NCBI RefSeq assembly: GCF_003386795.1
Contig: NZ_QTUC01000001.1
Span: 186,001-250,000, forward strand
Origin: Thermasporomyces composti
GTDB taxonomy: Bacteria; Actinomycetota; Actinomycetes; Propionibacteriales; Actinopolymorphaceae
Direction: 5' to 3'
Length of the DNA stretch: 64,000 bases
Shown here: piece by piece, positions 27,260-38,169 of the stretch
Layout: every line of letters starts with the position of its first letter
Numbering within the stretch: position 1 is the first letter of the stretch
The notes under the pieces: model-generated
Databases searched by the model: none
What the model saw: the letters and a program-made list of their open reading frames with translations, nothing else
What the model was told of the DNA's origin: nothing
Position numbers and translations under genes: made by a program

Positions 27260-27473
27260 GCCGCCCCCCTCTACTGCAGAATTCGTGTCGTGCGGCCAGG
27301 TCTCCGCCCGCTCTCCGGGGAAGCCGCCGTCTGGCGCCGGGGAAGGTGCGTCAGAAGGCGCGAGGAGCGGGCTGGAGACCTCGCCGCACGCGTCCGTCTC
27401 AATGAGCTCCCGCCGTCCCACCCGTGAGGCGGGTGCTCGACCGGTCGTGGCGCCGCCACGCCACGCCCGCGGT

Positions 27474-31116: not shown

Positions 31117-33492
31117 GTGATCAGCGCATTGAGAACCACCGCAGCCGGAGCCATCGCCACCCTGCTGGCCAGCCTCGCGCTTCTCCCTGCCATGCAGAGC
31201 CAGGCGTGGTTATGGCCCACGGCTTTCGCCGTCGTGTTCGTCGCGGCGACCGGGTTCGGTCTCCGTCACCTTGGCACCCCTCGCCTGCTCATCCCCCTCG
31301 GCCAGCTCGCCGCACTTGGCTGGGCCGCCACGCTGGTCTATGCCAACGACGAGCTGCGGTTCGGCTTCCTCCCGAGCTCGGAGTCGGTCCGCACCCTGGT
31401 CGAACGCATCAACGACGGGCTCTTGGTGGTCGTCCGCTTCGCCGCTCCGGTGCCCCACGATCCCGACCTGGTGGTCGTGACCGCCCTGGGCGTCGGGCTC
31501 GTCGCGATCGTCGTCGACACGATGGTCGCGACCTTCCGCTTGGCACCGTGGGCCGGGCTGCCCCTCCTCCTGCTCTACAGCATTCCCGCCACCACGGTGG
31601 CGGACGGCATCTCACCGTTCGCCTTCATCCTGCCCGCGATCGGCTACATCGCCCTGCTCGTCAGCGAGGGACGCGAGCGCCTCAACCGATGGGGCCGAGT
31701 CGTGGGCTTCGCCGACGATGTGGCCGGTCCCCAGAAGTCGGTGGGTGGGTCCGCGCTGGGGCAGACCGGACGTCGAGTCGGCGCGACCGTGATCTGCCTC
31801 GCCGTGGTCGTCCCCGCTGTCCTGCCGTCTCTGCCGGAAGGGGTCTTCGGGCAGGGCGACGGGCCAGGGCTCGGGAACGGCGGTGGTGGTCAGACCATCC
31901 GCGTCGACAACCCCATCGTCGACCTGAAGCGTGACCTGCGGCTCCCACAGAACGTCCCGGTCCTGAGGTATCGCACCGAGGTCAACCAGCCCGACTACAT
32001 CAAGCTGGTGACCCTCGACGAGTTCGACGGCCAGCGGTGGCGACCATCGCAACGGAGTGTTCGTGACATCGCCGGTGGCTCTGGCGAGAACACCTTGCCC
32101 GACCCACCTGGACTCGACGACCGCGTGCCCCGCACGAGAGTGCGCAGCACGTTCGAGATCGCCGAAGCGCTGGAGAGCAAGTGGCTGCCGACGCCCTATC
32201 CGCCCAGCGCACTCGACGTGCCCGGCGACTGGGGGTACGACCCCGACACGCTCGACATCGTGAGCAAGGGCGAGAGCTCAGCCGGGTTGCGGTATGAGGT
32301 CACCACATTGGACGTCGACCTCCAGCCGGAGGGTCTGCAGGCGGCCGGGCCGGCGCCGTCGGCCGTCCACGGCGACTACACCAGGCTCCCTCCGGACCTG
32401 CCTCGCCAGGTCGTCGAGCTCGCCCGTCAGCAGACGGCCGGGGCGGCCACAGCGTACGAGAAGGCGGTGGCGCTGCAGCGGTGGTTCCGCACCGACTTCA
32501 TCTACGACCTCAGTGTTGAGCCGGGTCATGGTGGCTCGGCGATGGTGGAGTTCCTCACCGACAAGCGGGGCTACTGCGAGCAGTTCGCCGCCACGATGGC
32601 GGTGATGGCGCGCTCGCTCGGAATCCCCGCTCGGGTTGCGGTCGGCTACTTGCCCGGGACGCGTCAGCCCGACAACTCCTGGCTCGTCACCGCCCATGAC
32701 TCCCACGCGTGGCCGGAGCTGTATTTCGCAGGCTATGGCTGGGTGCGTTTCGAGCCGACCCCCCAGGCTCAGACGGGCATGCCGCCGACCTGGACAGTGC
32801 CCGACTCCGGCACCACCTTCACTCCGGAGCCTGGGCTGACCGGGCGCCCCGAGGATCCTCGGGAGGAACGAGCGAGCGCCGCGCCGGTCGTCCCCACGGT
32901 GGAGCCGACCGACATGGCTGCTCCAGCCAACCCGGGCTCAAACGGGTGGTCCCTCGACCCGGTTCCCCTGCTCATCGGTGCCGGCGTCCTGCTCCTCCTG
33001 GCGTCACCCATGCTCGTGCGGACGACGATTCGTCGTGTGCGCTTGGCACGGAGCGAGCCGGCCCACCTGGTCGAGGGCGCGTGGCGTGAGCTCGCCGACG
33101 CCTGTCTCGACTATGGCGTGGCCTGGGATGCCTCGCTGACACCGCGGGCGACGGGCGCCCGGCTGCTGACGGCCTTGCCGATGTCGGTGTCGGCGGCTGT
33201 CCACCGACTCGTCGGTGCCGTCGAACGGACCCGCTACGCCCCCGAACCCGGATCAGTCGGCAGCACTCCCCGCGATGTCCGCATGGTGATCCGCGCCCTG
33301 CGCGAGGGAGCGCCGCTCAGCCGCAAGCTCCTCGCGCTCCTCCTACCCCCGTCCTTGTGGCGCCACCTGCCGCGGCTGTGGCGACCGATCACACGTTTGT
33401 TCGATGCGGTGGACGCGATCGGTCCGCGGCTTCGGCAATGGTGGTCTCGTTCCGATGCTGGAGGTCAGGCGGCCGCGCGACCGGGACGCTGA
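31117..33492 (+). CDS. TgpA-like transmembrane transglutaminase/protease-fold protein
   Basis: 791 residues from GTG 31117 (preceded by GAGGGG). Five or six N-terminal membrane segments (DUF3488 region) precede a large extracytoplasmic part with a transglutaminase-like domain. Predicted catalytic Cys487 lies in KRGYCEQFAATMAVMARSLG and His530 in DSHAWPELYF; the third residue is Glu in WVRFEPTP where Asp is often found. A last membrane helix (~620) and a DUF4129-like C-terminal domain follow. With MoxR and DUF58 it probably forms an envelope module; substrate unknown. Confidence 0.92.
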   Translation: MISALRTTAAGAIATLLASLALLPAMQSQAWLWPTAFAVVFVAATGFGLRHLGTPRLLIPLGQLAALGWAATLVYANDELRFGFLPSSESVRTLVERINDGLLVVVRFAAPVPHDPDLVVVTALGVGLVAIVVDTMVATFRLAPWAGLPLLLLYSIPATTVADGISPFAFILPAIGYIALLVSEGRERLNRWGRVVGFADDVAGPQKSVGGSALGQTGRRVGATVICLAVVVPAVLPSLPEGVFGQGDGPGLGNGGGGQTIRVDNPIVDLKRDLRLPQNVPVLRYRTEVNQPDYIKLVTLDEFDGQRWRPSQRSVRDIAGGSGENTLPDPPGLDDRVPRTRVRSTFEIAEALESKWLPTPYPPSALDVPGDWGYDPDTLDIVSKGESSAGLRYEVTTLDVDLQPEGLQAAGPAPSAVHGDYTRLPPDLPRQVVELARQQTAGAATAYEKAVALQRWFRTDFIYDLSVEPGHGGSAMVEFLTDKRGYCEQFAATMAVMARSLGIPARVAVGYLPGTRQPDNSWLVTAHDSHAWPELYFAGYGWVRFEPTPQAQTGMPPTWTVPDSGTTFTPEPGLTGRPEDPREERASAAPVVPTVEPTDMAAPANPGSNGWSLDPVPLLIGAGVLLLLASPMLVRTTIRRVRLARSEPAHLVEGAWRELADACLDYGVAWDASLTPRATGARLLTALPMSVSAAVHRLVGAVERTRYAPEPGSVGSTPRDVRMVIRALREGAPLSRKLLALLLPPSLWRHLPRLWRPITRLFDAVDAIGPRLRQWWSRSDAGGQAAARPGR

Positions 33493-33534
33493 TCTCCCCT
33501 GACTTGGCGCGGTTGCGGTCTGGCGGAGTACGAC

Positions 33535-33564
33535 ATTCGATCCGCGAGAATTCGATCCGCGAAA
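33535..33564. repeat. Two-copy 15-bp tandem repeat
   Basis: ATTCGATCCGCGAGA (33535-33549) is followed directly by ATTCGATCCGCGAAA (33550-33564). It lies in the convergent gap between the transglutaminase and DUF3040 genes. No function is evident. Confidence 0.6.
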
Positions 33565-33733
33565 GCGTGACGTCGCGACACCGCCGCCTGCTCATCCGCC
33601 GCAGGGCGGCTGATCACGTGGAGCGAGCAGGTCCCAAAGCCAAGATCCGATGGACTGCGAAAGAGCGGGCACACTCAAGCCCAACGATAGGAAGGCTCGG
33701 AATCCTGCGAAGGACCCCGAAAGGCGGAGGAGG

Positions 33734-34162
33734 CTAGAAGCCGGACTCCCGTCTGCGTCGCCAGCGCTCCTCCATCCGCTGCATGAACGAACCGCTCGGC
33801 TTGCCCTTCGCACCGGGCCGGCCGGCACGACCACGCAGCGGGATCACCGTGGACGTCTCGCCCGATGCGGGCATATGGCGCAGCGTCGTCGCCACGTAGT
33901 AGGCGGACACCAGCATGACGACGAAGCCCAGGACACTGACCACGATGTAGCCGGTGGCATTCCGTCCCGTGGTCATCACGACGGCGCCACCGAGCATCAT
34001 GACCATGCCCACAAGGAACACCAGTGCACCAAGGACCGCCCTGCGGCGTTGCCGGGTGCGCAAGTCGACTCCTCGCAGCGCCGAGGCCAGTTTGGGATCC
34101 TCGGCGGCAAGGGCCCGCTCCATCTGCTCGAGCAGTCGCTGCTCGTGGTCGGAGAGAGGCAC
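33734..34162 (-). CDS. DUF3040 membrane protein
   Basis: 142 residues typical of DUF3040, an actinobacterial family of unknown function. It has the N-terminal motif MPLSDHEQRLLEQMERALAA, which gives the family its signature, then DPKLASALR. Two adjacent membrane segments follow (~43-65 and 71-93), then a basic cytoplasmic C-terminus (MEERWRRRRESGF). TTGGAGGTCC precedes the ATG. It lies at the end of a minus-strand group with a methyltransferase and a HEPN protein. Confidence 0.92.
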   Translation of the reverse strand: MPLSDHEQRLLEQMERALAAEDPKLASALRGVDLRTRQRRRAVLGALVFLVGMVMMLGGAVVMTTGRNATGYIVVSVLGFVVMLVSAYYVATTLRHMPASGETSTVIPLRGRAGRPGAKGKPSGSFMQRMEERWRRRRESGF

Positions 34163-34383
34163 CGGACCTCCAACGGGACACTGCCGTGTTCGATCTTTAA
34201 CGGCTTTAGGTGCAGTCTAGGCAGGCACCGACCCGCGCGGTAGCTGACCTGTCACGTTCGACGGTACCCCGGCAGTCCCGGCCTGCTCCACCCCGCGGCC
34301 GCCCGAATCGTCACGCACGTCCTAACCCCGTCACTTCGCGGCCACGCTGGTCCTCTCGATGGGTCTGACGCGGCCGCCGTCGG

Positions 34384-35229
34384 TCAGAGCCGCCGAGCCA
34401 GCACGTGAAGCTGGGTCGCGAGAGCGCGGAAGGTGGGATCCTCGCTCGCCAAGGACTCCAGCTGTAACAACTCGTCGACACCGCCAGGATCGTCCGCGCA
34501 TCGGCTCGGGACGAGGTCGGTGACCACGCGGACCCCGTGCTCGGCGAGCACCACCAGGCCGGCGTCTTCGACCGCTCGGCGCAGCTGTTCAGCGGTGAAC
34601 CGCCGGGGCACCGGATCGCTCACACCCCAGCGGCCAGCCGGGTCGGTCAGCGCCGTCCGAGCCTCGGCGATGTGACCGCCGAGCAGCTTGGTGAGAACCA
34701 GGCCGTAGCGATTGGCGACGACGACACTCAGCGCACCACCCGGCCTCAAGACACCCGCCAACGCACGAAGAGCGACACCGGGATCGTCGACCACCTCCAA
34801 GACGCTGTGGCAGAGCACGAGGTCGGCAGTCGTCTGGAGGACGTCCGGAAGGTCGGCGGCGTCGCCCTGCACAGCTCGAACACGGTCGGTGACACCCGCC
34901 TCCTCCGCACGCCGTTCCAAGGCCGCGAGGGAGTCCGGACTGGGGTCCACGACTGTCACGCGGTGGCCCAATCGGGCGATCGGTACGGCGAGATTGCCCG
35001 TGCCGCCACCGGCGTCGACGACGTCGAGGACGGATCGGGCCGCGACCTCCACCTGCTCTTCCAGGGCAGCTCGTACCAGGCGCCAGATCACTTCAGCACG
35101 GACCGATCGGCGGTGGCCGGCAGCACTGCCTGGCGACTCGCCCCACGGATGGTCAACGGTGTCAGGGGTGTGTGGGCCTCGCTGGGCCACGGGCGGAGCC
35201 TCCTCGACGGTGTGAACAGCTCGCCCCAA
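34384..35229 (-). CDS. SAM-dependent class I methyltransferase
   Basis: Up to 281 residues. The Rossmann SAM site is VLDVVDAGGGTGNLAVPIA, followed by acidic VTVVDPSPDSL and the motif LVLCHSVLEVVDDP. The C-terminal part has the substrate-domain look of small-molecule methyltransferases (ANRYGLVLTKLLGG). The substrate cannot be told. The start is uncertain: the longest frame uses TTG 35229 and internal GTG codons are possible. It sits between DUF3040 and a HEPN gene on the same strand, as in several actinomycetes. Confidence 0.85.
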   Translation of the reverse strand: MGRAVHTVEEAPPVAQRGPHTPDTVDHPWGESPGSAAGHRRSVRAEVIWRLVRAALEEQVEVAARSVLDVVDAGGGTGNLAVPIARLGHRVTVVDPSPDSLAALERRAEEAGVTDRVRAVQGDAADLPDVLQTTADLVLCHSVLEVVDDPGVALRALAGVLRPGGALSVVVANRYGLVLTKLLGGHIAEARTALTDPAGRWGVSDPVPRRFTAEQLRRAVEDAGLVVLAEHGVRVVTDLVPSRCADDPGGVDELLQLESLASEDPTFRALATQLHVLARRL

Positions 35230-35410
35230 CCCTACGGCGCAGCGGGGTCACTCGGACCACGGAAGGTCGTATTCGACGTCGTCCGCGTCCGACGTCGAAC
35301 GCATCCGACGATGCCATGGTCAGACCAGATCGGCCTTCCGACCGGTTCACACGTCCGAGCCAGCCTGCGCGCCCGGGTCAGGTCGCTCCAGGGGAGGCAG
35401 GCCTTCGCTC

Positions 35411-35932
35411 CTACGCGGCAGCGCCCGGTCGTCGCGACGGCGTGGGATCCGCAGCGGCCGCCGTCGCCGGTCCACCGGTCGGTCCAGTGCGCGGCTGGTC
35501 GACAACACCCGATCCCTGTGGGAGCACCGGTCGATGCGGGACGTCGAGCAATTGCTCCACCACGACCAAGAACCGCTCCGCGTCGCGAAGCAGATCGTCC
35601 GCCTCGCGATCGGTCACACGACCGAGGCCTGCCTCCAGGGCCGCTCGCTTGTCGGCACCGGCGGCGAAGAAGGCCGCCCACTCGCTGAGTTCCGGCGCCA
35701 CCCGGGCGAGGAGCGTCCAGGCGCTGGTCGGGCGGCGACGACCAGCCGGACGCGCGCGGCTGGCGAGCACGGCGGCAGCGATCCGCAACGCGGCGACGTG
35801 AGCGGCGACGTACCGATCCGCGGCGGAGTCCGCCAGCATCGCCTCGGTGAGCGAGGCGCGAGCTCGGTCGAGTGAGGTGAAGACGCTCGGTCCCAACGGC
35901 GCCTTGTATCGACTCGTGGCGCGTGTCGACAT
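35411..35932 (-). CDS. SAV_6107-type HEPN domain protein
   Basis: 173 residues, mostly helical (VFTSLDRARASLTEAMLA, VAALRIAAAVLASRA, AWTLLARVAPELSEWAAFFA). It matches the SAV_6107 HEPN group by overall pattern. An Arg40-x4-His45 motif (RYVAAH) fits the Rx4-6H active site of HEPN ribonucleases, so RNase activity is possible. The C-terminal 45 residues are Pro/Ala-rich and probably disordered. GGAGGAG precedes the ATG. A LexA box lies 262 bp upstream. Confidence 0.8.
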   Translation of the reverse strand: MSTRATSRYKAPLGPSVFTSLDRARASLTEAMLADSAADRYVAAHVAALRIAAAVLASRARPAGRRRPTSAWTLLARVAPELSEWAAFFAAGADKRAALEAGLGRVTDREADDLLRDAERFLVVVEQLLDVPHRPVLPQGSGVVDQPRTGPTGGPATAAAADPTPSRRPGAAA

Positions 35933-36066
35933 GACGACTCCTCCTGGTCAGACAGCGTCCGTCCGAGGGACTCCTACGGCCTGGCTGCGCCTCCCCCTCG
36001 TTTCGCTTCGCGCGTCCCGATCCGTCCACGTGTCAGCCGCCGTGCGTGCGTGACCGAAGGCTGCTG

Positions 36067-36114
36067 GGGTCTGGGCGGAACGCTTCCCCTGCCCTGCACA
36101 CTCCGCCCAGACCC
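36067..36114. repeat. 13-bp inverted repeat upstream of HEPN gene
   Basis: GGGTCTGGGCGGA at 36067-36079 pairs perfectly with 36102-36114 across a 22-nt loop. It lies 135 bp upstream of the HEPN start. It may be a terminator for a transcript entering from the right, or a protein-binding dyad. Confidence 0.45.
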
Positions 36115-36193
36115 AGCCAGGCCCGAGCTCGCCACGATGGTGGCGGCTGGGCCCTCACCCGGCGGAGACGAGGCACCGCACCACCGGCGTTGC

Positions 36194-36209
36194 TCGAACA
36201 TACGTTCGA
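36194..36209. promoter_or_regulatory. LexA (SOS) box
   Basis: TCGAACATACGTTCGA is a perfect match to the actinobacterial and Gram-positive SOS consensus (CGAAC-N4-GTTCG) with one extra paired base on each side. LexA binding here should repress a DNA-damage-inducible transcript. It does not abut a recognisable SOS gene: the nearest gene start on the minus strand is the HEPN gene (262 bp), and on the plus strand a short unassigned frame. Confidence 0.85.
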
Positions 36210-36540
36210 ACGATGGGCACTGTATCCGGCCACCGCCGAGGGCGTCAACACCGGAACGAGCAACCGGACACGACGCGCGGAGTTCGCAACCGGCAAGGGC
36301 CGGGTCCCGGCTGCTGGAGACGCCCAGACGATGCCGGGTCGAGACCCAGTGCCAGGTCGAGATGCCGTCGGTACGGGCCGTCATGAGGCGAGTGTGACAG
36401 CGAGCACCGACAACGCCTCAGCTCACGGAGTGGAGAAGACCACGGCGAAGACCGGTGGGAGACGCGGAGGAGAAGACGTGGAGGAGAAGAAGAGGACGAC
36501 GAAGGAAGCGAGCGAGAGAAGCGACCGGACGCGCCTCGCG

Positions 36541-36583
36541 CGTCTCGGGTGAGCCCCACCCCCGTCGGGGCCCACCCGAGACG
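36541..36583 (+). terminator. Strong hairpin terminator
   Basis: An 11-bp perfect stem (36541-36551 with 36573-36583) is extended by five inner G-C pairs around a 9-nt loop, then a T-rich tract (GCCTTCCTCTT). It lies between the LexA box and the downstream FAD gene, so it would end a plus-strand transcript of about 350 nt beginning near the box. Confidence 0.65.
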
Positions 36584-36810
36584 GTGCCTTCCTCTTGCCT
36601 GGAATCTTCCCGGCCGGAACGGCCGGCATCATCCGAAGCCGTACTCAATCCGGACTAGGTACCCGGACGAGGTCCCAGCCTGGGTACGCAGCCGGGGTCT
36701 GGGCACGACGCCTCAGGGGTGTCCACCCAGACGGAAACGGCAGGGCGAGCCGTGACCAGCGGGACCGGCCAGTCAGGCGGAACGTGGGCGCGCACTAGGC
36801 TCCCCTGGCT

Positions 36811-38169
36811 GTGGCACGCGTCGTCGTGGTCGGAGGAGGGCTCGGCGGGCTCGCCGTCGCCGCTCGGCTCGCGAAGAACGGACACCAGGTCACGCTGGTG
36901 GAGCGCGCCACCCGGCTGGGTGGCCAGATCACGCGCCGGACAGGTGTCGGCCCAGCCGAGGGCTTCCAGTGGGACGCGGGGCCCGCGGAGATGACGTTGC
37001 CGACCACCATCCGCGACCTGTTCCGCAAGTCCGGACGGCCACTGGAGAGAGTCCTCGACCTCCACCTGGTGACCGACCCTCGACGCCACGTGTTCTCGGA
37101 CGGCACGGTCCTCGACCTGCCCACCCAGAGCCGGGCCGACCAACGACGCGCGCTCTCCGAGACGCTGGGCGCGGCGACCGCGGACGCGTGGGAGGCGACC
37201 GTCGACGGTTTGACCGCGACGTGGGAGCTGCTCCGCACCCGCGTCCTGGAGGTCCCCTTCGCGGGAGCGCGACGTCTCGGCCCTCGAGCACTGCGCCGTC
37301 TGGCGTTCGGGACGTCGCTTTCCACCTTCGCCGGTCGCGCACTCCCCGATCCACGCGCGCGGCGCGTCCTGGAGTACACGGCCGTCGGTGTCGGCTCCGA
37401 GCCGCGGCTGGCTCCGGCGCTCACCGCGGTCCACGCCTACGTCGAGCGGACCTTCGGGCTCTGGCGCTGCCCCGGGGGCTTCGCCCGGCTGGCCGACGCC
37501 CTCGCCGACCGAGTCCGGGAACGCGGTGTCGACCTTCGGCTGGGGAGCGCGGTCGTGGCCATCGAGACCAACGAGGCCGCCGTCACAGGTGTCCGACTGT
37601 CAGACGGCAGCCGGCTTGCGGCTGAGGTGGTCGTGTGCGACATCGACGTGCGCGACGTGGTCTCCCGGCTGTCGCCGAGCGCTCCTCGGGCGCTGCGGCG
37701 AGCCGCTCGACGGCTCCGTCCCGGGCGAGCACTTCGCCTCGTCCACCTCGGCCTGCGAGGCGAGGCCGAGGACCTCCCCCACGAGACCGTCGTCCACGGC
37801 GCGGAGGCGACCGTCGTCGTGCGGGCGCCACGCGACCCCGCTCTCGCGCCGCCGGGCCATCGCGCGGTCACCCTCGTGGTGCCCGACGGGGCGTTGGCCG
37901 GCGAGGACGTCCTCCGGTGGCTCGCCCGGTACGGCGTCGACCTCCGCGACCGGGTCGCGGTCCGTCTCGACGACGAGTCCCGTCCATGGGGGCCGACCTG
38001 GCGGGGGCCGTGGCGTGGCCTGGGCGTCGCGCGCAACGCCACACCGGTTCGAGGACTGTTCCTCGTCGGCGACACCGCGCACCCGGGGCCGGGCGTGCCC
38101 GCGGTGCTGCTCGGAGCCGCCGCCACCGTGCGGATGATCGACGAGACGTTCGGGCGGCCGCCTCGATGA
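36811..38169 (+). CDS. Phytoene-desaturase-like FAD-dependent oxidoreductase
   Basis: 452 residues. The dinucleotide-binding fold is VVVVGGGLGGLAVAARLAKN followed by VTLVERATRLGGQI. The C-terminal FAD motif LFLVGDTAHPGPGVPAVLLGA is typical of the CrtI/amine-oxidase superfamily. Carotenoid desaturation is one option, but no phytoene synthase is nearby. A polyprenyl diphosphate synthase 1 kb away hints at isoprenoid, quinone or lipid modification. GTG 36811 lies 9 nt after TAGGCT and lacks a ribosome-binding site, so the mRNA may be nearly leaderless. Confidence 0.85.
   Translation: MARVVVVGGGLGGLAVAARLAKNGHQVTLVERATRLGGQITRRTGVGPAEGFQWDAGPAEMTLPTTIRDLFRKSGRPLERVLDLHLVTDPRRHVFSDGTVLDLPTQSRADQRRALSETLGAATADAWEATVDGLTATWELLRTRVLEVPFAGARRLGPRALRRLAFGTSLSTFAGRALPDPRARRVLEYTAVGVGSEPRLAPALTAVHAYVERTFGLWRCPGGFARLADALADRVRERGVDLRLGSAVVAIETNEAAVTGVRLSDGSRLAAEVVVCDIDVRDVVSRLSPSAPRALRRAARRLRPGRALRLVHLGLRGEAEDLPHETVVHGAEATVVVRAPRDPALAPPGHRAVTLVVPDGALAGEDVLRWLARYGVDLRDRVAVRLDDESRPWGPTWRGPWRGLGVARNATPVRGLFLVGDTAHPGPGVPAVLLGAAATVRMIDETFGRPPR

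Follow-up and report, generated by a model that had tools for sequence, protein, structure and literature searches.

Gene content of the locus

The window, that is the whole 64-kb stretch of DNA analysed here, carries on its minus strand a gene for a protein of the HEPN_SAV_6107 family, and the features around it are collected in Table 1. The initial annotation had described the gene starting at 35932 as a SAV_6107-type HEPN followed by a methyltransferase and a DUF3040 gene, and the domain matches bear this out for all three. The DUF3040 gene is also the downstream end of the gene order that the locus shares with its relatives. The next plus-strand gene encodes an FAD oxidoreductase and starts at 36811, approximately 600 bp beyond the SOS box. 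The gap from 35932 to 36811 measures 878 bp and, as had been described, the ORF and domain scan finds no recognisable repair gene in it.

Table 1. Features of the HEPN locus and their positions in the window.
Feature	Position	Strand	Evidence
LexA (SOS) box	36194..36209	(-)	TCGAACATACGTTCGA; minus-strand reading TCGAACGTATGTTCGA; 0 mismatches
-35-like hexamer TTGACG	36243..36248	(-)	sigma-70-like consensus match
-10-like hexamer TACAGT, 18-nt spacer	36219..36224	(-)	sigma-70-like consensus match
Leader, box to HEPN start	35933..36193	(-)	AGGAGG-type ribosome site right before ATG
HEPN_SAV_6107 protein, 173 aa	35411..35932	(-)	Pfam PF18726 7.4e-34, above cut-off
SAM-dependent methyltransferase	34384..35229	(-)	PF08241 1.8e-19
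DUF3040 / SCO2097-family protein	33734..34162	(-)	PF11239 3.1e-27; NF058603 above cut-off

Among the scanned neighbours of the HEPN gene (methyltransferase, DUF3040, FAD oxidoreductase, MTHFR and transglutaminase) there is no MNT nucleotidyltransferase antitoxin gene, and the locus thus does not have the composition of a HEPN-MNT system. It also has no translesion polymerase gene of the kind found in an SOS mutasome operon. A tblastn search of 33001-36800 gave no remnants of DnaE, DinB, ImuB or DUF6504 (best E 0.23), and the presence of such pseudogene remnants at the locus was rejected. When the whole window was compared with Rfam at gathering thresholds, the sole match was the mraW RNA motif RF01746 at 27278-27397 (-), which scores 50.7 bits where the gathering score is 50, and nothing was found in the gap. 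The RNA fold of the leader is unremarkable (z -1.17), and on these two results the idea that the gap encodes a known or structured RNA was likewise rejected.

The SOS box and the putative HEPN promoter

The perfect 16-bp SOS box reported by the initial annotation is indeed the only match without mismatches to TCGAACNNNNGTTCGA within the window, and it matches 12/12 specified bases of the actinobacterial SOS-box consensus. We take TCGAACNNNNGTTCGA to be this consensus, an assumption backed by two perfect boxes that lie upstream of the genome's own lexA (TIGR00498 above cut-off) at C1:461605-461687. An NrdR-type gene is located on the far side of these lexA boxes. Genome-wide (4,372,514 bp) there are 8 distinct perfect TCGAACNNNNGTTCGA sites compared to one for the reversed pattern. 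Four more perfect SOS boxes are found at C1:88906, 376451, 641800 and 3567506. LexA boxes starting with TCGAAC are a feature shared with the LexA regulon of Streptomyces venezuelae, in which, according to the main text of that study, the boxes begin with TCGAAC and dnaE2-dinP is a target (PMC9380542).

The TTGACG-18-TACAGT site at 36248-36219 (-) is the only sigma-70-like promoter in 35100-36900 (mean of 50 shuffles 0.0); promoters here and below are consensus matches, not mapped transcription starts. The site is directed at the HEPN gene and the box begins 9 bp past its -10 hexamer, so transcription should start within the box or immediately before it, which is a usual position for a repressor. 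Judged by this consensus-match promoter, the HEPN gene has its putative operator at its own promoter, as a gene of the LexA regulon does.

Conservation of the box

In close relatives the box is fully conserved. All 8 genomes of the window's family have a perfect box upstream of HEPN with the 12 specified bases intact, and the half-sites are perfect in 8/8 while the 4-nt spacer and the flanks vary. Among the 30 best-scoring loci of a search within the taxonomic order (HEPN plus 1.5 kb on each side, two of the loci repeating family genomes), 29 have a perfect box and one has a box with one mismatch.

The survey was extended to 160 loci of Actinomycetes in three overlapping sets, namely 40 from the order search, 40 diversity-chosen loci from a class search and 80 named loci; the sets share genomes (e.g., L082 and L165). 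All the loci were collected via HEPN, and shared ancestry inflates every count. A box was called when it had at most one mismatch and was situated no more than 1.3 kb upstream of the HEPN domain. Three named loci with less than 600 bp upstream (L175, L176 and L205) were excluded, leaving 157 evaluable loci. Such a box is present in 146/157 of them (order search 39/40, class search 34/40, named 73/77). Of the control tiles, which were taken from other parts of the named loci, only 2/337 contain a box, as compared to 73/77 upstream of HEPN, and a chance origin of the box was rejected on this basis.

Seven of the 11 box-less loci belong to Streptomycetaceae, assigned by name or by the family label f19 (L134, L135, L158, L177, L186, L198 and L222). 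The others are L071, the f7 loci L143 and L144, and L150, which has a perfect box at -1463, past the 1.3-kb limit; f7 loci L257-L259 do carry a box upstream of HEPN. For Streptomycetaceae this means boxes with up to one mismatch in 0/7 loci of the three sets, and the short f19 loci give 0/20 (two genomes shared with the three sets). The HEPN gene is kept in these 20 loci (L093-L096, L099, L100, L102-L104, L106, L107, L109-L115, L117 and L119). They are part of 29 short class-search loci (L091-L119), the other nine of which come from other families and all (9/9) carry a box that deviates in one base at most. In 10/20 f19 loci the closest match to the box deviates in two bases and sits at a common position, approximately 270-290 bp before the HEPN domain, so that the Streptomyces-type box looks degenerate rather than moved. 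In general, then, the box is conserved together with the gene in the manner of a LexA regulon, and it is absent or degenerate in Streptomycetaceae. The lack of a good box in Streptomyces-type loci fits the absence of the word 'HEPN' from the main text of PMC9380542 on the S. venezuelae LexA regulon.

The conserved promoter geometry also bears on the direction of control. Since the box lies within a divergent intergenic region, it could in principle serve the plus-strand side, either the FAD oxidoreductase gene that starts at 36811 or some small transcript from the gap. In the window, however, only the minus strand showed a promoter-like site. Among 148 box-bearing sequences (the window and 147 loci), a promoter-like site points toward HEPN in 104 and away from it in 2, and in the 108 promoter matches toward HEPN the -10 hexamer begins 13-17 bp before the box in 88 and inside the box in 16. 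In one family genome (G007; loci L020 and L070) the gene over the gap is not the FAD oxidoreductase, and the box and HEPN remain together. Control of the plus-strand side is thus scarcely credible, and control of the divergent gene by the box was rejected on the minus-strand promoter and on the 104 to 2 ratio.

Translesion polymerase genes in relatives

A frequent gene order in the relatives is box-DUF6504-HEPN-DnaE-methyltransferase-DinB-DUF3040, and a second one is box-HEPN-ImuA'-ImuB-DnaE2. The initial annotation had raised the possibility that the locus is what is left of a lost dinB locus with a surviving operator, and the comparison across relatives lends support to the first part of it: in many of them DinB sits between the methyltransferase and DUF3040 genes, and DnaE between HEPN and the methyltransferase. 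Polymerase matches were counted on the HEPN strand up to 8 kb downstream, contig ends shortening some of the loci. Both DnaE and DinB were found in 55 of the 160 loci, DnaE only in 10, DinB only in 22 and ImuB with DnaE2 in 13; 51 had none and 9 were too short to tell, and at least one polymerase match is present in 100/160. In 48 of the 65 loci having DnaE and no ImuB, the HEPN stop and the first DnaE match are -7 to +26 bp apart, which is expected of a single transcript.

The identity of the operon proteins rests on several models. The reference DnaE (L051) reaches about the same score with the error-prone model PRK05672 as with the replicative PRK05673, in both cases under the cut-off, while it passes that of TIGR00594, the general DnaE model; it is therefore termed error-prone here by its context. 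The operon DinB is above the cut-off on DNA polymerase IV models, and the small protein upstream of HEPN is PF20114 DUF6504. In L132 the gene between HEPN and ImuB encodes ImuA' (NF058630, 183.9 bits, cut-off 65), and its DnaE2 scores 1482 bits on PRK05672 (cut-off 939). ImuB was named on a weak Y-family match together with its neighbours, no ImuB model having matched. In L210 (Nocardioides ungokensis) the DnaE gene next to HEPN, approximately 0.5-4.6 kb downstream of where HEPN starts, is matched by several successive fragments, which would fit a disrupted reading frame, and HEPN and its box look intact beside it.

These operons can be compared to known systems. Putative actinobacterial mutasomes of the types DnaE2B-PolY-(ImuB-C)-RecA and DnaE2B-(ImuB-C) have been described in the main text of PMC12926913, and the loci of the relatives resemble them in having a DnaE-type polymerase, DinB and DUF6504 under a LexA box, DUF6504 being probably the stand-alone ImuB-C of that study. 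They differ in that a HEPN gene lies between the box and the polymerase, and the window locus differs further in having no polymerase. In the ImuA'-ImuB-DnaE2 mutasome the known core consists of ImuA', ImuB and DnaE2, and HEPN is not part of it; in 13/160 loci HEPN is located between the LexA box and the genes for ImuB and DnaE2.

The box is also retained where polymerases are missing. Among polymerase-free loci, in which 5.5-8 kb downstream were searched, 41/50 evaluable ones have a box, and the nine without it are the seven Streptomycetaceae-type loci and two of f7. In several loci (e.g., L081, L206, L208, L236 and L241) there is a second box before the polymerase part, with HEPN keeping its own. 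Taken together, these two observations suggest that HEPN itself is the likely object of SOS control. They also bear on the second part of the lost-dinB proposal, in which the box would be a leftover operator of a lost polymerase operon and HEPN a passenger under SOS control without function. This would account for the lack of DnaE, DinB and ImuB at the locus in 8/8 family genomes. A useless remnant, however, is hard to reconcile with boxes at 41 of 50 polymerase-free loci, with second boxes beside those that HEPN keeps, and with half-sites that stay perfect in 8/8 while spacer and flanks drift. From sequence comparison, the operator is probably not a fossil, and HEPN as a mere passenger appears highly unlikely.

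The locus in the window's family

In the window and the seven 15-kb loci of its family, the box, HEPN, the methyltransferase and DUF3040 are all present (8/8), and no DnaE, DinB or ImuB match occurs at the HEPN locus in any of the eight. In one of them, G007 (L070), the methyltransferase and DUF3040 genes are located across the box on the opposite strand. When the N-terminal 420 residues of the operon-type DnaE were searched against the window genome, no match reached E <= 1e-60. It does have an ImuA'-ImuB-DnaE2 cassette at C1:2274854-2281054 with a perfect SOS box at 2281039; its ImuA' gives 185.2 bits (cut-off 65) and its DnaE2 1484 bits (cut-off 939), and its ImuB is 50% identical to that of L132. 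This cassette is the likely mutasome of the genome. At 1.386 Mb there is a dinB gene, with the palindrome ACGAACATATGTTCGT, which has two mismatches to TCGAACNNNNGTTCGA and ends 17 bp before the start of the dinB match. The four Y-family genes of the genome are 46, 42, 39 and 30% identical to one operon DinB, to which four other operon DinBs are 53-61% identical. Translesion polymerases are thus encoded at other places in the genome, two of these sets being accompanied by a box or a box-like site, and HEPN retains a box of its own. Because the full gene order is so widespread, loss of polymerases at the locus is the simpler reading: DnaE and DinB would have left the locus in the window's family and HEPN would have stayed, a direction suggested by the distribution of gene orders.

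Structure of the HEPN protein

The AlphaFold2 model, built from 55 sequences, has a mean pLDDT of 87.3 and is a six-helix bundle of the HEPN fold, with helices at residues 15-33, 37-59, 71-78, 80-91, 93-100 and 108-128. VIA-align gave Z 15.2 against 2hsb (rmsd 2.3, 116 aligned residues), 12.9 against the sacsin HEPN and approximately 9 against HEPN toxins, bearing in mind that VIA-align Z below approximately 13 can be common among helical bundles. Foldseek returned no match at E <= 0.001, and the HEPN assignment rests on the VIA-align Z and on Pfam; a HEPN-profile sequence search of solved structures gave two weak matches (E 0.12 and 0.66). By its profile match and helical fold, the protein belongs to the HEPN superfamily.

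The RYVAAH motif, which the initial annotation had regarded as fitting a HEPN ribonuclease active site, occupies residues 40-45 at the start of helix 2. Residue 40 is Arg in 53/55 relatives and Lys in 2/55, and residue 45 is His in 49/55 and Tyr in 6/55; in a set of 81 sequences the corresponding figures are 69/74 for R40 and 65/76 for H45, among the sequences having a residue there. The entry titles of the HEPN-MNT toxins on the fold list name R102, H107 and Y109, near the end of a chain of approximately 141 residues. We take these to be the catalytic residues. By chain length, their site would fall at approximately residues 96-103 of the protein studied here, where R96 is present in 55/55 and no conserved His follows. 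Indeed, in the 55 sequences there is no conserved Rx4-6H near the last helix, and outside residues 38-40 the motif is found at any one place in no more than 3/55. The invariant residues are R50, W72, W85, R96 and F121.

An SOS-induced ribonuclease is the most substantial rival of an accessory role. Release of LexA would then lead to production of an RNase slowing translation or growth during repair, and a HEPN under a box without a nearby polymerase would suit such an independent effector, as would the fold itself, with HEPN toxins among the structural matches at Z of approximately 9, and the frequency of R40 and H45. However, the Rx4H is found where helix 2 begins, not near the chain end as the toxin residues are, it is rare at every other place, and its residues are replaced by Tyr and Lys in some relatives; neither is there an MNT-type antitoxin gene among the neighbours scanned. 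The family was also scored 'No' for Rx4-6H conservation and '-' for operons in Table 1 of Anantharaman et al. (2013; PMC3710099). The protein studied here agrees with that table entry in being an actinobacterial member of the same Pfam family (HEPN-M, SAV_6107) whose Rx4-6H is not scored as conserved, and departs from it in the strong SOS and translesion-polymerase context of the gene. The proposed RNase active site is thus not supported, given the position of the motif, Tyr in 6/55 and the published score, and of the suggested DNA-damage-inducible RNase module only inducibility finds backing, from the box, the direction of the promoter and their conservation. On the model, RNase action of this HEPN is unlikely, and so, somewhat less sharply than for the passenger reading, is the SOS-induced ribonuclease as a whole. 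The helical bundle, the five invariant residues and the presence of the gene beside two mutasome types point to a protein that binds rather than catalyses.

Co-occurrence with polymerases

Loci collected via HEPN cannot show that HEPN always occurs in such operons, and the reverse question was put to a class sample of 295 genomes, 186 of which have HEPN. It is present in 76/87 genomes with an L051-type DnaE (E <= 1e-60) and in 110/208 without, relatedness being ignored. No association with ImuB was seen in the class sample (HEPN in 80/128 genomes with ImuB and in 106/167 without). The L051-type DnaE lies within 600 bp of HEPN in at least 40 of the 87 genomes, both are present and apart in 28 and HEPN is absent from 11, nine of which belong to one family; in 8 of the 87 the HEPN position is not among the matches listed, and one of these (G237) is adjacent. 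At the thresholds used, 36/186 HEPN genomes have neither ImuB nor an L051-type DnaE, so the protein may act without either partner. Outside the class, PF18726 gave weak matches in other classes, in 13 genomes of a 296-genome phylum sample, and 11 of these (L244-L254, several on short contigs) had no box with up to one mismatch and no match to the reference polymerases.

Proposed role and significance

The box at 36194-36209 would be the working operator of a LexA-repressed promoter transcribing HEPN, and probably the methyltransferase and DUF3040 genes with it. In the undamaged cell LexA would occupy the transcription start and keep the promoter silent; upon DNA damage, RecA-driven cleavage of LexA would release it and HEPN would be made, in many relatives together with translesion polymerases. 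That the HEPN gene is DNA-damage-inducible is well supported as a prediction from the box and its surroundings. HEPN would be a usual member of actinobacterial SOS mutagenesis operons, accompanied either by DnaE and DinB or by ImuA', ImuB and DnaE2, and would still be under SOS control in the window's family, where the DnaE and DinB genes are gone from the locus. The protein would most likely be a non-catalytic helical-bundle accessory that serves translesion polymerases, or else the stalled fork, as an adaptor or regulator; the first of these, a non-catalytic accessory of the polymerases, is the likeliest role. As a whole, this combination of SOS operator, mutasome-operon membership and non-catalytic accessory function seems to us likely to be right.

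A more specific proposal, to which we give an even chance, is that SAV_6107 HEPN is an unrecognised part dedicated to actinobacterial SOS mutagenesis. The operon would yield it early, as a bundle devoid of catalytic activity, to load, restrain or hand over DnaE2 and Y-family polymerases in two mutasome types, and it would have held on to its SOS function in trans once the polymerases had relocated. A link of SAV_6107 HEPN to the SOS response or mutasomes was not reported in the literature searched, which consisted of main texts of largely open-access papers, and the word 'HEPN' is absent from the main text of PMC12926913, PMC6511836, PMC3919608 and PMC3765255.

SOS mutasomes generate mutations under stress, and the list of their actinobacterial parts is still being drawn. 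Being common (186/295), having a near-constant LexA box outside Streptomycetaceae and lying beside DnaE in at least 40/87 genomes, HEPN is a strong candidate for a missing mutasome part. The protein may assist damage-induced mutagenesis across many actinobacteria and have been overlooked in this respect. An orphan HEPN family thereby gains a testable pathway, and there is a hint of how a fold familiar chiefly from toxins may have been put to use as a repair accessory.
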